Positions 14,117 to 63,833 of a DNA stretch of 64,000 nt are shown here, in pieces; within the stretch, counting starts at the first letter, position 1, and each line of letters begins with the position of its first letter. The DNA comes from Cristatella mucedo. Its lineage: Eukaryota > Bryozoa > Phylactolaemata > Cristatellidae. A model generated the notes under the pieces. It was not told where the DNA came from. It saw only the letters and a program-made list of their open reading frames with translations, and searched no databases. The position numbers and the translations under genes are program-made. The DNA lies in NCBI GenBank assembly GCA_009760855.2, contig WPIO01000013.1, forward strand, positions 724,501 to 788,500, read 5' to 3'.

Positions 14117-14190
14117 GTCTCTGTGGCGCAACTGGTTAGCGCGTACGGCTGTTAACCGTAAGGTTGGTGGTTCGAGCCCACCCAGGGACG
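14117..14190 (+). tRNA. tRNA-Asn (GTT)
   Basis: A complete cloverleaf. The acceptor arms GTCTCTG and CAGGGAC pair over seven positions with one G-T pair. The D arm is GCGC...GCGC, the anticodon stem TACGG/CCGTA carries the loop CTGTTAA with anticodon GTT at 14151-14153, and the T arm is GGTGG-TTCGAGC-CCACC, followed by discriminator G. No CCA is encoded and a TTTT terminator starts at 14195, as expected for RNA polymerase III. It lies in an intron of the large gene, on the opposite strand. It looks functional rather than a SINE head. Confidence 0.93.
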
Positions 14191-29154: not shown

Positions 29155-29475
29155 GTAGAAGCTTTAGCTCAGCAGGTCCTCGACTGTGGAACTCGCTTCC
29201 ACAATTCTTAGGCAACGACAGCTACTCTTCTGCTGCCGACTAAGGCTCATCCTTTTCAGCGGTCCTGAGCTGCTACTTCCATGATACTCACTACCTCAAC
29301 TGCTCTCCTGATTCTGCTATTCTTCCCACTTTCTCTTTGTTGCGTGAGACGAAGTCTGTTGGCTACCAAATGCGTACCGAAAGCCGCTTAGGCTGTGAGT
29401 GTGCTATACAAAATTCTCCTGAGTAACTCCCACATGATCTCTACGACTTTGTGGAGTTACATACGGAGATACATT
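29155..29475 (+). mobile_element. LINE-B 3' fragment
   Basis: It encodes the last part of LINE-B (SSAGPRLWNSLPQFLR-like, then LLRETKSVGYQM) and the short 3' UTR ending at GTGGAGTTACATACGGAG. It faces an inverted LINE-B copy immediately to the right. Confidence 0.8.
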
Positions 29476-29480
29476 ACATA

Positions 29481-34597: not shown

Positions 34598-36585
34598 AGA
34601 GGTCTGCAAATTCGGGCCTTTAGGCCTGATATGGCCTAGCAAGTATTCAAGTACGGCCTAACGCCCCCTAATTATTCATCGTTGGATCCGAACTTGAGCA
34701 ACTACCGCCCCGTTTCCCTTCTACCATTCCTATCAAAGACACTTGAACGGGTCGTGGCAGACCAGCTGAACTCGTATATCGAAACCTCACACCTTGCTAG
34801 TAAGTTCCAGTCTGGCTTTAGAGCTAATCACTCCACAGAGTCAGCATTGCTTCGGTATACAACGACCTACTTAGGAATGCAGACATGGGTAGAGTGTCTC
34901 TGCTTGTTTTGCTTGATCTTTCGGCAGCTTTTGAGACCATCGATCACAAAGTTCTTCCAGAGCGCCTCTCATCTCACCTGGGCATCACTGGCACTGCTCT
35001 GCAGTGGTTCAGGTCCTATCACAGTGGGAGACTCCAGAGTATTGACGTGAATAGACAAAGATCATTTGAAGTACCTCTGAAATATGGAGTACCTCAGGGC
35101 TCAGTGCTAGGTCCGGTTCTTTTCACGGTTTATACTCTGCCTCTTGCTGATGCGATTGCCAAGCACAATCTAGGCTTTCACTTCTATGCAGATGACACTC
35201 AGTTGTACCTTTGCTTTGATCCCTCCCAGCTTTCGAGCACCTCAAATTCTCTAAACTCACTAGCTGCATGCATCGATGACATCCACACATGGATGGCAGC
35301 AAATTTTCTAAAACTTAACGATGATAAAACTAACTTACTAGTTATGGGCAAACTCAGTGTGATCCAGAGATTGGAAAGGCTGACTCTCAAAATTGGCTCT
35401 GCCAGCATATCTCCAGTTGAATCAGCTCTAAATCTAGGTGTCATATTCCAAAGCAACCTCTCGTCAGACGACCGTATCAGCTCCACAGTCGAATCCGCCT
35501 ATTTTCAGCTTCATAACATTGCTAAAATTCGGGCTTGTTTAGATAAAGATACCACGTCCAAGTTGGTCCATGCATTCGTGACATCCCGTCTCGACTTCTG
35601 AAACTCACTGCTTACTGGCCTACCAGCATGTGCGATCAGGCGATTGCAGCTGGTGCAAAACTCTGCAGCTAGGCTTGTCTGTCGTGAGCGTCGCAGTTGC
35701 CACATTACTCCACTTCTCGCCGACCTGCACTGGCTACCAGTCAAGCAACGGATTGACTTCAAGGTTTTGTCGCTCACTTTTAGGTCCCTTCATTCTATGG
35801 CTCCAGCCTATCTGTCAGATATACTACCCCATCAGGCTAAGCATCGTTTTTCGGAATCCAACAGTCTAGAAATACCTCATACAAACCTTAAATCCTTTGG
35901 AGACCGTGCATTTAGTTCATATGCTCCCAAAGCCTGAAACTCCCTCCCGACCTGCGTCAGAACATCCCCTGACCTGACCACATTTAAAAGGAACCTAAAA
36001 ACACACCTATTTAGGACAGCATTTAGTGGGTCCCTGTGATTCGCCCTTGATGTGCTTATGCGTGCTGACACTGTGCATACTGCCACTAACCACATTTGCA
36101 TGCTGACCCTGTGCATTTCACCCCTAACCAAATTATTCATTTTGTTTGTTTTTCAAGCACGATTTTACTTACCATTCAATTGCATTTCACTTTACAGCAA
36201 ATGTAAAGCGCCTAGAGAGAGATTGAGTTCTCTGAGGGCGCTTTATCAAGTGAATTATTATTATTATTATTATTATTATCCGGCCTAGTGGAGTTGTTGC
36301 TGTTTAGTTCCCCTTCATTACTTGTGGTTGCAGCTCAAGCCGTGGCATGTGTTTATTTTTAGAACTGATGGCAGGCGCTTGTTTGAAACTGACGCACTTG
36401 ACCGGGAGGGAGGATAAAGGCCTGCCCTACAATCGTCGGGCGCGTCCGCGTGCCAGTCGTGACTGTTCGTCTGGCCACGCCCGCTCGGGCAGGACCTGTG
36501 GAGTGGGCGTGGTTTCATCTGGTCTAGTGTGACTTCTTGACCTCCTGAAATGGCTTCCCCATTCCAAAAGGTTTGCCGAACAGTG
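34598..36585. mobile_element. hAT-like element carrying a LINE-A copy
   Basis: Left end CAGAGGTCTGCAAATTCGGG, right end (reversed) CACTGTTCGGCAAACC: an imperfect hAT-type terminal repeat with CA and GCAAA conserved. Flanking octamers ATTTAGGT and GTTTAGTG both derive from ATTTAGTG in LINE-A, so an 8-bp duplication is likely. Its own sequence is only about 390 bp (34598-34684 and 36280-36585). No transposase was seen, so it would be non-autonomous. Confidence 0.65.
34684..36279 (+). mobile_element. LINE-A inner copy, the most 5' sequence in the window
   Basis: This copy reaches further upstream than the others: NLSNYRPVSLLPFLSKTLER and FQSGFRANHSTESALL, then [25 protein letters not shown] and the intact core [14 protein letters not shown]. 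One frameshift near 34885 and a stop at 35599-35601 break it. It ends with the 3' stem and (ATT)n. It sits inside the hAT-like element. Confidence 0.92.
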
Positions 36586-38361: not shown

Positions 38362-39035
38362 AACTTAATGTAATGTATCTCCGTCAGTAACTCCACAAAG
38401 TCACAAAGACCATGTGGGTGTTACGCAGGAGAGTTTTGTATAGCGCACTCACAGCCTAAGCGGCTTTCGGTACACATTTGGTAGCCAACAGACTTCGTCT
38501 CACGAAACAAAGAGAAAGTGGGAAGCATAGCAGAGTTAGGAGAGCAGTTGAGGTAGTGAGTAGCATAGAAGTAGCAGTTCAGGACCGCTGAAAAAGATGT
38601 GCCATAGTCGGCAGTTGGAGAGTAGATGTCGTTGCGTAAGAATTGTGGAAGCGAGTTCCACAGTCTAGGACCTGCAGAGCTAAAGCTTCTGTCGCCAACT
38701 GTCTTTAAGCGGAGGAATGGGACAGCTAATTTATTGTCCACACAGGACCTGAGGGCGCGAACAGGCTGAAACTGATGCAGCAGTTCAGCTAGGTATGAAA
38801 GAGCCAAGCCGTGGCGGGCCTTGTGGGTCAGCGTAAGAACTTTGCTCTGTATCCTTTGCTCAACCGGCAACCATCCTAGCTCTTTCAGCAAAGGTGACAC
38901 GTGCTCAAACCGCTGGGACTTGAAGACCAGCCTTGCAGCCATATTCACAGTCCACTGTAGTGGCATAATAGCTTTCTTTGGTAGCCCAGCCAAAAAGGAA
39001 TTACAATAATCAAGCCGAGACAGAACTAAAGAGCC
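38362..39035 (-). mobile_element. LINE-B, intact C-terminal frame
   Basis: An uninterrupted frame of about 200 residues encodes the end of ORF2 (LVLSRLDYCNSFLAGLPKKA, LGWLPVEQRIQSKVLTL, GDRSFSSAGPRLWNSLPQ) to a natural stop near 38421. The 3' UTR and the ACTGACGGAGATACATTACA tail follow. It is truncated at the 5' end. It is nearly identical to the copy at 44.6 kb, so insertion was recent. Confidence 0.9.
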
Positions 39036-44519: not shown

Positions 44520-46797
44520 TTGTAGATTTATTGATCTTTCGGCAGCTTTTGATACTATCGATCACCTAGTCCTTGTTGAGAGCGTCTCATCTCAACTAGG
44601 CATTAATGGCACTGCATTGCAATGGTTATGTTATTATTATTATTATGTATCTCCGTCAGTAACTCCACAAAGTCATAAAGACCATGTGGGTGTTACGCAG
44701 GAGAGTTTTGTATAGCGCACTCACAGCCTAAGCGGCTTTCGGTACGCATTCGGTAGCCAACAGACTTCGTCTCACGAAACAAAGAGAAAGTGGGAAGCAT
44801 AGCAGAGTTAGGAGAGCAGTTGAGGTAGTGAGTAGCATAGAAGTAGCAGTTCAGGACCGCTGAAAAAGATGTGCCATAGTCGGCAGTTGGAGAGTAGATG
44901 TCGTTGCGTAAGAATTGTGGAAGCGAGTTCCACAGTCTAGGACCTGCAGAGCTAAAGCTTCTGTCGCCAACTGTCTTTAAGCGGAGGAATGGGACAGCTA
45001 ATTTATTGTCCACACAGGACCTGAGGGCGCGAACAGGCTGAAACTGATGCAGCAGTTCAGCTAGGTACGAAGGAGCCAAGCAGTGGCGGGCCTTGTGGGT
45101 CAGCGTAAGAACTTTGCTCTGTATCCTTTGCTCAACCGGCAACCATCCTAGCTCTTTCAGCAAAGGTGACACGTGCTCAAACCGCTGGGACTTGAAGACC
45201 AGCCTTGCAGCCATATTCATAGTCCGCTGTAGTGGCATAATAGCTTTCTTTGGTAGCCCAGCCAAAAGGGAATTACAATAATCAAGCCGAGACAGAACTA
45301 AAGAGCTAGTTAAATTTTTTACAACCACTGTGGGAGACAGCTTCTAATCTTGGATAGGGATCGGATGTGATGGCTAGCTGTAGAGGCAGTCTTCTGAATG
45401 AAGCTTTTGAAATTGAGGCAGCCGTCGAACACGACACCTAGATTACGAGCACGTGGTGAAGGTCGCACAATAGCATCACCTATTAGAATAGCAAAGCCTT
45501 TTAATCCAGCCATACGCTTAGGGTGTCCTATGAGACACCCTAAGCGTGTGGCTCAGGTCCTATCAGTGAGAGACTCCAGAGTATCGATGTGAATGGACAA
45601 AGATCATCCGAGGTACCTCTGAAATATGGGGTACCCTAGGACTCCATGCTTGGTCATACTCTTTTAATGGTTTATACTCTGGCACTTGCCGGTGTGATTT
45701 CCAAGCACAATCTAGAATCTCACTTCTTTTCGGATGGCATTCATTTTTACCTTTGCTTTGCTCCTTTCTGGCCCTTCAGCACGTTGCATTTTCTCACCTC
45801 CCTTGCTGCCTGTATAGATGACATCCGCACATGGAAGACGGCAAATTTTCTTAAATTTAATAATGATAAAATCGACTTACTAGTTATGGACAAATTAAGT
45901 GTGCTCCAAAAATTGGAAAGGCTAATGCTCAGAATTGGCTCTGTCAACTTATCTCCTTTTAAATCTGCTCTACATCTAGGTGTGATATACTAAAGTGACC
46001 TTTCGTTAGACGACCACACCAGCACCACATTCAATTTTGCCTACTTTCAGTTACATAACATTGCTAAAATTTGGGCTTTTATAGACAGGGATAACTCATC
46101 TAAGTTGGTCCCTGCATTTTTGACATCCCGTCTTGACTTCTGTAACTCAATGCTTGCTGGTCTACCGGCCTCTGCACTCAAGCGCTTACAGCTGGTGCAA
46201 GACTCTGCAGCTAGGCTTGTCTGTCGTGAGCATCGCAGTTGCCACATCACACTACTTCTCGCCGACCTGCACTGACTACCATTCAAGCAAAGCATCGACT
46301 TCAAGGTTTTTTACTCAGTTGTAGGTTCCTTCATGCTTTTGCTCCAGCCTACCTATTGGATCTACTGCCCCATCAGGCTAAGCATCGTACCACCCGCTTT
46401 CGGAATCGAATGTTTTACCTCAAAATCGTACAAATCTCAAATCCTTTGGAGACCGCACCTTTAGTTCGTAGGCTCTCAAAGCCTGGAACTCACTTCCTAC
46501 TTGCATCACGACATACACTGACTTGACCATGTTTAAAAACAAATTTAATAGGCACCTATTTATCACTAGATTTAGTAGGTCCATCTGATTAGACCTAGAT
46601 TTTCTAATGCATGCTGCTACCAACCGCACTTGCATGCTGACCATGTGCATGTCATCCCTAACTATGTTATTCCAGCTGTTTATCGAGCATTATACCACTA
46701 ACCATTTGATCGTACTTTTTGCAGCAAATGTCAAACGCCTAGAAAGAGATTGATTTCTCTGAGGGCGCTTCGTCAAGTGCTTTATTATTATTATTAT
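44520..46797 (+). mobile_element. LINE-A copy split by a LINE-B insertion
   Basis: The left part (44520-44627) encodes FIDLSAAFDTIDH to GTALQW. After the LINE-B insertion it resumes at 45554 with AGGTCCTATCAGTGAGAGAC and runs to (ATT)n at 46797. The motif region is decayed (FSDGIHFYLCF). Several stops and frameshifts are present. Confidence 0.9.
44640..45535 (-). mobile_element. LINE-B inserted in LINE-A, with foldback at its 5' end
   Basis: A frame of about 200 residues (LVLSRLDYCNSLLAGLPKKA to a stop near 44693) is preceded by a second frame with GDAIVRPSPRARNLGVVFDG. It has an (ATA)n-type tail where other copies have ATAC. Its 5' end stops at HPKRMAGL and is joined to a reversed copy of its own last 20 bp (arms 45508-45527 and 45534-45553). 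Confidence 0.88.
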
Positions 46798-54960: not shown

Positions 54961-55290
54961 GCTCAGGCAGCTCTACCAATGAGCAGATGATGAGGCTAAT
55001 GAATCGGCAGCTCTACCAATGAGCAGATGATGAGGCTAATGAATCGGCAGCTCTACCAATGAGCAGATGATGAGGCTAATGAATCGGCAGCTCTACCAAT
55101 GAGCAGATGATGAGGCTAATGAATCGGCAGCTCTACCAATGAGCAGATGATGAGGCTAATGAATCGGCAGCTCTACCAATGAGCAGATGATGAGGCTAAT
55201 GAATCGGCAGCTCTACCAATGAGCAGATGATGAGGCATGATGGTGATGATGAGCAGATGATGAGGCTAATGAATGAATCGGCAGCTCTTT
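54961..55290. repeat. 40-bp minisatellite, about seven units
   Basis: The unit CGGCAGCTCTACCAATGAGC plus AGATGATGAGGCTAATGAAT repeats without visible change from 55005 to about 55230. Partial or altered copies lie at both ends. High identity implies recent expansion. There are no spacers, so it is not a CRISPR-like array. Confidence 0.95.
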
Positions 55291-55807: not shown

Positions 55808-56443
55808 CTGTCTAATCACTGGCTTAGCAGTCCTTTAATCCAGTCGCTGTAATTCAGACGCTTTAAGCATCTTCATAACCCTAATAATGTTCTTAATTTT
55901 TTCAAGCTATCATGGAAGAGGGTGAATTTATCAGGGTTTATTAAGACATATTCAACTGCTACTACATGTAATCTTTTTCTGGAAAATTGTATCCCCAAAA
56001 AACAATCTTGACTTTTACGTTTTCCCTAATCATTCTGCTCTTGTCATCCTCCGAGTATTCTCAGCCTTGCAACACATGCGGGTTACTAATGTGTTCTTTG
56101 CTTGCTCATCTAAGAAGAATATATAATATGATTTTTAATGAATGCTTAAGCGCGATGTATTGCATGACTTTAACTCTAGGTTATTGCATTTATGTTCAGT
56201 GAATTATAAAGTACTTTGACATAGGATTGTTTTTCCTATGTCACTATGAAGATGATTTATTATTGTTCTTATAGCCAGAACCATACAATCAAACAAGAGA
56301 TAACCTTCCGTGAAGGATTTTCAATCCAAATTTTACCTTAGAAAACTGGTACATGCTTTACCCGGAGTGAAAAACCGTGCTACTTCCACTACCATTAGCC
56401 ACCACAGAATGGGTCAAGGCTACTAAAATTCTTGGCTGTAAGC
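55808..56443. other. Intron sequence, nothing seen
   Basis: A 71-residue plus-strand frame (55987-56202) has no motif. Nothing else was recognised. Confidence 0.4.
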
Positions 56444-56628
56444 CAGCGGTTTTCAACTTGTGGGTCGCGACCCCTCAGGAGGATTGAACAATCCTTTCAC
56501 AGGGGTCGCCTAAGACCATCTGAAGACATGCAATTCCACATTTCGCACACAATTTTATGGTTTGCGGTGGCCAAAACACGAGGAAACGTATTAAAGGGTC
56601 GCGCATTAGGAAGGTTGAGAAGCATTCG
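56444..56628 (+). mobile_element. SPIN-like hAT MITE
   Basis: It starts CAGCGGTTTTCAACTTGTGG and then has GGTCGCGACCCCT, CTTTCACAGGGGTCGCCTAA, GACCATC, a short AT-richer middle, AAAGGGTCGC and the end TTAGGAAGGTTGAGAA. This order and wording match my memory of the non-autonomous SPIN/Charlie-type hAT elements of vertebrates. Ends form an imperfect inverted repeat (CAGCGGTTTTCAAC against a reversed GGTTGAGAA-type end). A clear 8-bp duplication is not visible. It lies in an intron of the large gene. Identification is from memory, not a search. Confidence 0.72.
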
Positions 56629-57434
56629 CTTAGAGTCCAAGCGGATAAAAATCCTTCGACATTCCTTGCATAAACTGACTATAGCCAATACAAAAATCTT
56701 AAATCTCCAAAGGCTTTATAGCGATCACCGTGGATGATGCAAGCGGGCTTGCAGAATTGCCAATAATGTCAACCTCCAGTATTTCAATAAATTTTTCAGG
56801 CAAGATAAACCAACCTTTTGATTATTGTCATACCCGAATTCCTCAATGATTGAGCTGAGTAAAGTGCAACATCTTTCATATTGTCCTCGGTCCTTTTAAA
56901 TTGTCTAAGCACGTCTTGGTGCCGTGTCAGTCAGAGACTCGTTAAGCGCTTCGTGAGTGCTTGAAAAGTGCAAGGCAGTTTTTACAGTTTTCGCTAGTTT
57001 CCATTTACACTTTTGCAAGACAGTCCTTTTTCTTTCTTCTTCCTTTTTCTTTCTTCGTCGTGTGACCCTCTTCAGCGTGTGACCATTGATATCACGTTGA
57101 CGCACGCTAAAGCCTGGATGGCGTACCCTATAACTGACTGATTATTCAGGGCTGAGTTCATGCAGCACGCGAACTGGCGGTGGACCTGTCTATCCTCACG
57201 TCACGTTACCTTCTTCCTGGGGCGTGGGAGGTATGGGGTATTTCACTGGTTCACATTCTGCTTCTTCCTGTTTCATCACGTAGCGCAATGGATCGAGGCT
57301 TTAAGGACCCTCCACCATCGTTCACCTGGATTGAAATGGTTGCTATTTGAAGAAACCGTGAACTAGGATACCATAAGACTCCTCCCTGGATTAAGAAACT
57401 TTGCTTTACCAAACGGAGGTACCGTAGTGAAATG

Positions 57435-62604: not shown

Positions 62605-63833
62605 AATCAGCAGCTTTCAATTATGAAATATGGAGTACCTCAGGGCTCAGTGCTAGGTCCGGTTCTTTTCACGGTTTATACTCTGCCTCTTGCTGATGTG
62701 ATTGCCAAGCACAATCTAGGCTTTCACTTCTATGCAGATGACACTCAGTTGTACCTTTGCTTTGATCCCTCCCAGCCTTCGAGCACCTCAAATTCTCTAA
62801 ACTCACTAGCTGCATGCATCGATGACATCCACACATGGATGGCAGCAAATTTTCTACAACTTAACGATGATAAAACTAACTTACTAGTTATGGGCAAACC
62901 TAGTGTGATCCAGAGATTGGAAAGGCTGACTCTCAAAATTGGCTCTGCCAGCATATCTCCAGTTGAATCAGCTCTAAATCTAGGTGTCATATTCCAAATC
63001 GACCTCTCGTTAGACCACCATATCAGCTCAACAGTCAAATCTGCCGATTTTCAGCTTCATAACTTTGCTAAAATTCGGGCTTGTTTAGATAAAGATACCA
63101 CGTCCAAGTTGGTCCATGCATTCGTGACATCCCGTCTCGACTTCTGCAACTCACTGCTTACTGGCCTACCAGCATGTGCGATCAGGCGATTGCAGCTTGT
63201 GCAAAACTCTGCAGCTAGGCTTGTCTGTCGTGAGCGTCGCAGTTGCCACATTACTCCACTTCTCGCCGACCTGCACTGGCTACCAGTCAAGCAACGGATT
63301 GACTTCAAGGTTTTGTCGCTCACTTTTAGGTCCCTTCATTCTATGGCTCCAGCCTATCTGTCAGATATACTACCCCATCAGGCTAAGCATCGTACCACCC
63401 GCTTTTCGGAATCCAACAGTCTAGAAATACTTCATACAAACCCTAAATCCTTTGGAGACCGTGCATTTAGTTCATATGCTCCCAAAGCCTGGAAATCCCT
63501 CCCGACCTGCGTCAAAACATCCCGTGACCTGACCACATTTAAAAGGAACCTAAAAACACACCTATTTAGGACAGCATTTAGCGGGTCCCTGTGATTCTTC
63601 CTTGATGTGCTTATGCGTGCTGACACTGTGCATGCTGCCACTAACCACATTTGCATGCTGACCCTGTGCATGTCACCCCTAACCATATTATTCAGTTCAT
63701 TTGTTTTTCAAGCATGATTTTACTTACCATTCCATTGCATTTCACTTTACAGCAAATGTAAAGCGCCTAGAGAGAGATTAAGTTCTCTGAGGGCGCTTTA
63801 TCCAGTGAATTATTATTATTATTATTATTAAGT
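62605..63833 (+). mobile_element. LINE-A, longest intact frame
   Basis: A 330-residue frame (62602-63594) covers the C-terminal half of a LINE reverse transcriptase protein: [12 protein letters not shown] (residues 12-23), the catalytic FYADDTQLY (43-51), then [30 protein letters not shown], and [12 protein letters not shown] near the end. This layout is usual in CR1/L2/Rex-type LINEs. The 5' part with endonuclease is missing, so it is truncated and not autonomous. 3' UTR, stem and (ATT)n follow to 63833. It is the youngest-looking copy. It lies upstream of the first exon found. Confidence 0.93.

Follow-up and report, generated by a model that had tools for sequence, protein, structure and literature searches.

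A worn SPIN-type hAT MITE and its multi-copy family in an invertebrate genome

Background

The window analysed here, by which we mean the whole 64-kb stretch of DNA, carries a short sequence that raises two questions: whether a SPIN-type hAT transposon resides in this genome, and what such a copy would add to the known distribution of these elements. The initial annotation had answered both, describing a SPIN-like hAT element in an apparently invertebrate genome and suggesting that it would extend the SPIN pattern. According to PMC3517528, hAT transposons have 8-bp target-site duplications and terminal inverted repeats (TIRs) of 5-27 bp, and the target consensus of their Buster group is nnnTAnnn. 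Here we show that window positions 56444-56627 are one old, worn, non-coding copy of a SPIN-type jumping gene, and we describe the family to which this copy belongs, the genome that hosts it and the other hAT elements found there.

Results

A diverged copy of a 187-bp element

When the copy in the window is aligned with a consensus built from 40 family members, 160 of the 183 aligned bases agree and the alignment contains 5 gap positions. The alignment to the family consensus keeps the originally annotated start at 56444 exactly and places the last element base at 56627, one short of the 56628 given before. The features are as follows.

56444..56627, + strand: diverged copy of a 187-bp non-autonomous hAT (Buster/SPIN-type) MITE, by alignment to the 40-copy consensus
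56444..56459, + strand: 5' terminal inverted repeat CAGCGGTTTTCAACTT, family consensus CAGCGGTTCTCAACCT, from the sequence and the consensus alignment
56462..56468, + strand: GGGTCGC subterminal repeat that shares bases with an inverted copy immediately 3' of it, from the sequence and the consensus motif count
56503..56509, + strand: GGGTCGC subterminal repeat, from the sequence and the consensus motif count
56596..56602, + strand: GGGTCGC subterminal repeat near the 3' end, from the sequence, the consensus motif count and the alignment
56612..56627, + strand: 3' terminal inverted repeat, degraded, AGGTTGAGAAGCATTC, family consensus AGGTTGAGAACCACTG, from the sequence and the consensus alignment
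14117-14190: tRNA-Asn (GTT) gene, elsewhere in the window

The GGGTCGC at consensus positions 124-130 is mutated in this copy. The words that had been quoted as characteristic of SPIN/Charlie elements are indeed present where they were placed, GTGGGTCGCGACCCC at 56460-56474 and the 22-mer ACAGGGGTCGCCTAAGACCATC at 56499-56520, the latter with an expectation of 0.00 as judged from 100 dinucleotide shuffles. When the window was searched with the element by blastn, E values up to 10 being allowed, only short stretches matched elsewhere, so this is the sole copy in the 64 kb. Its Kimura distance from the consensus, 14.5 %, is the largest among the 40 scored copies. No clear target-site duplication was found at this copy, the flanks of which match at 2 of 8 positions.

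A family resident in the host genome

The initial annotation had proposed counting other copies in the host genome. A search of the assembly (572 Mb, 688 contigs) with window positions 56400-56700, with scoring of the best 40 among 1955 first-look candidates, yielded at least 40 copies on 26 contigs at 80-100 % identity. The true copy number is therefore higher than 40. The 39 other copies were fetched and all 40 were aligned, with no row dropped; having been selected for their likeness to the window copy and not at random, they form a biased sample.

Built de novo from the 40 copies, the consensus is one 187-bp sequence with clean ends, differing from an earlier 21-copy consensus at two interior positions. 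Its TIRs, CAG[C/T]GGTTCTCAACCT, are 16 bp long, match at 15 of 16 positions and are short as in hAT elements. The 8-bp flanks match at six or more positions in 29 of 40 copies, compared with 7.8 % of mismatched flank pairs, which fits the 8-bp duplications of hAT elements; among the remaining 11 copies, 3 match at 5 positions and 8 at 3 or fewer. Flanks agree at 7 or 8 positions in 20 copies; of these, 17 have T at position 4 of the 5' flank and all 20 have A at position 5, a TA-centred preference that fits the nnnTAnnn given for Buster in PMC3517528. The consensus carries five GGGTCGC motifs on its two strands, compared with 0.027 in base shuffles, and its longest stop-free frame is 55 residues. 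Kimura distances of the 40 copies to the consensus average 6.5 % and range from 3.3 to 14.5 %. Short, non-coding, multi-copy, homogeneous in length and bounded by TIRs and duplications, the family is a MITE, as judged from the 187-bp consensus and the 40 scored copies.

Comparison with SPIN

The reference used for SPIN was a working sequence of a rodent URR1/SPIN-type element that does not come from a database and was set down partly with host copies already in view; the comparison therefore gives a lead and falls short of a database test. The ends of the 40-copy consensus are identical to this working reference at 164 of 166 positions, with 84 identities among the 85 bases aligned at the 5' end and 80 among the 81 at the 3' end, and the match spans 166 of the 187 consensus bases at 99 %, well beyond a single motif. 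The copy in the window, taken alone, is 86-87 % identical to the same reference across stretches of 85 and 75 bases. Against this reference the ends of the 21-copy consensus score 148 and 142 bits, compared with at most 25.6 bits for 200 base shuffles of the consensus; interior positions 86-106 of the consensus find no match in it. If the working reference is right, the match to the rodent element is strong.

SPIN (SPACE INVADERS), a non-autonomous hAT of the Charlie/Buster group, and the family described here are alike in their 16-bp ends and 8-bp TA-centred duplications and, if the working reference is right, near-identical in their terminal sequence, differing at consensus 86-106. The earlier description as a SPIN-like hAT holds insofar as this is a hAT element of the Buster/Charlie group with SPIN-type ends, and the family is a candidate member of SPIN proper.

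Six words of the family were looked for in the texts of open-literature papers and no paper was found. Of four 13-15-base TIR words, one or another occurred in 4 papers, which by their titles and the starts of their abstracts are not about transposons. The exact 22-mer had 0 matches in viral contigs and in microbial genome contigs, and blastn of the consensus against phages and plasmids gave no match.

Other hAT elements of the host

In the host genome at least 138 matches to the hAT dimerisation domain (PF05699; 150 of 766 candidates scored) and at least 46 to DUF4371 (PF14291; 150 of 237 candidates scored) were listed. Forty-nine hAT loci (20, 10, 15 and 4) were compared with the MITE consensus by blastn, in stretches of 1.7 to 4.6 kb that may stop short of one or both element ends, and none matched. 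As autonomous partners, the PF05699 loci L057-L076 and L077-L086 and the PF14291 loci L087-L101 and L102-L105 were rejected on this result, and none of the 49 revealed an autonomous copy with a SPIN transposase. The source of the MITE may be extinct, it may have been missed, or a related transposase may act across families.

Loci L057-L076 (for example G000:C62:104187-104423) form a young hAT family: L058 is 97.8-99.5 % identical to the 19 other fetched loci over 2.0-2.2 kb, with no match to the MITE consensus, and the family is probably recent or active. Across the PF05699 matches, 63 of the at least 138 listed have E values of 1.1e-16 or lower, 62 of these 63 are free of internal stops, and many of the frames are about 640 residues long. 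A Buster-like hAT of about 2.7 kb, with the TIR CAGGGGTGTCCAAC, lies at L102:1082-3795 and also in L103-L105, the four copies being 93-95 % identical to one another. Its 472-residue frame in L102 exceeds the cut-off for the hAT dimerisation domain and falls just below that for DUF4371. The ends of this element resemble published Buster2 MITEs, for which PMC4298943 found no autonomous partner.

The host and the rest of the window

The host was assessed from a mitochondrial contig of 21,008 bases (C688). Its COX1 contains 11 in-frame TGA codons; AAA reads as Lys, AGA/AGG as Ser and ATA as Met, as judged by eye against conserved residues. This is the invertebrate mitochondrial code and therefore the host is not a vertebrate, which bears out the initial view of the genome; the reading also speaks against echinoderms and flatworms. 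By eye from the translations, one strand carries the order ND1-ND6-CYTB-ND4L-ND4-ND5, a block of molluscs and related phyla that a rearranged arthropod could also give. Searches for tyrosinase and for arthropod cuticle protein yielded 0 matches, and their positive controls were equally silent; read literally, the former would count against a mollusc and the latter against an arthropod. In the same contig (L035-L037, G000:C688:1-21008) a 2.1-kb segment, with the 3' part of ND3 in it, is perfectly duplicated in tandem, and there are perfect 1.8-kb inverted copies; these duplications may be real or an effect of assembly.

The window itself has a CpG observed/expected ratio of 0.77. Its 25 frames of at least 120 residues were compared with Pfam: 3 match reverse transcriptase over the cut-off and 22 match nothing over a cut-off, and a PDB search with one of the three reverse-transcriptase frames found no match. 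Repeat copies with reverse-transcriptase frames lie at 35078-36275 and 62624-63830 (96 % identity over 1.2 kb), with older, partial relatives elsewhere in the window. A 670-bp repeat at 38365-39034 and 44637-45306 (98 % identity) has frames of 220 and 216 residues without a Pfam match; relatives in inverted orientation lie at 1351-2043 and 29157-29479. About 1.2 kb upstream of the MITE copy, at 54966-55236, a 40-bp unit forms a perfect tandem array of 6.8 copies, and a degenerate, telomere-like GGGTTTA array of 13 units lies internal to the contig at 23688-23778.

Discussion

In favour of a chance resemblance of short words one may cite the brevity of a single word such as GGGTCGC. The 22-mer with its expectation of 0.00 in shuffles, the 40-member family and the gap between at most 25.6 bits for shuffled consensus sequences and 148 and 142 bits for the 21-copy ends make such a coincidence extremely improbable. 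Contamination, that is vertebrate or other DNA in the assembly, had been raised in the initial annotation, and SPIN-type elements are abundant in some vertebrates, which counts in its favour. Against it, the 40 scored copies are spread over 26 contigs, the longest of 24.8 Mb, the flanks of 21 aligned copies differ from one another, and the copies have decayed and carry target-site duplications; we give this explanation hardly any weight. The family, with its at least 40 copies, its ends, target-site duplications, target preference and decay, is resident in the genome and is not contamination.

It is also conceivable, though unlikely in our assessment, that the family is not SPIN itself but a different Buster-group family sharing SPIN-like ends, either a relative of Buster1 or a vertically inherited Buster. 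The comparison with SPIN uses a working reference from outside any database, and the other Buster-like element of the host (L102-L105) shares the general plan of the ends; however, this rodent reference matches 166 of 187 consensus bases at 99 % and not the motif alone. The motif is not specific to SPIN, as Buster1 carries TGGGTCGCG subterminal repeats, for which PMC4298943 suggests a role in transposition. As described there, Buster1 has these repeats and its target preference in common with the MITE described here but differs in its TIR (CAGGGCTTCTTAAAC, compared with CAG[C/T]GGTTCTCAACCT) and in the length of its non-autonomous elements (366-580 bp, compared with 187 bp), and on the TIR it was rejected as the family. 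Buster2, known there from hAT Buster MITEs in Rhodnius, a strepsipteran and a bat, has in the bat the TIR CAGGGGTGGCCAACCT, to which the L102-L105 element of the host is similar and the MITE is not.

We therefore favour reading 56444-56627 as an old insertion of a 187-bp non-autonomous Buster-group MITE of the SPIN type, moved in trans, whose family spread and is now decaying, with a probability of roughly 0.85. A transposase of the SPIN/Buster type would have been supplied in trans and would have recognised the 16-bp inverted repeats and probably also the GGGTCGC subterminal repeats. The element would then have been cut out and pasted at TA-centred 8-bp targets, the family spreading in this way before its present decay. 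Its first arrival may have been by horizontal transfer.

How far this extends the SPIN pattern depends on what is already in print. SPIN is reported from Rhodnius, where SPIN, OC1, hAT1 and ET transposons reach about 98.1 % identity with vertebrate ones (PMC11614815), and from the painted turtle with 385 elements (PMC4054807), and in Biomphalaria glabrata a hAT present in about 1,000 copies is significantly identical to SPIN (PMC5440852). The Biomphalaria element is likewise multi-copy in an invertebrate genome; its roughly 1,000 copies stand beside 40 scored here of 1955 candidates. No intact transposases were detected in that assembly according to PMC5440852, and here the 49 hAT loci gave no match to the MITE consensus. 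A further invertebrate SPIN-type family probably adds a host, but the claim of extending it is weaker than was first made because the Rhodnius and Biomphalaria cases are in print; the family is at most a new host.

Conclusions

Most likely, a travelling MITE that is already known has landed once more, and the family is a new host record for it. To the bolder proposal, of an unreported multi-copy SPIN invasion in an invertebrate lineage beyond triatomine bugs and the freshwater snail, by horizontal transfer and not by descent, we assign about even odds; under it, ends still about 99 % identical to the rodent SPIN-type element would therefore imply horizontal arrival. The finding leaves the nature of SPIN and its way of moving unchanged. 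If the lineage is unreported, the copies would date and locate one more cross-phylum SPIN landing, and their mean decay of about 6.5 % would give a time window comparable with those of known invasions.
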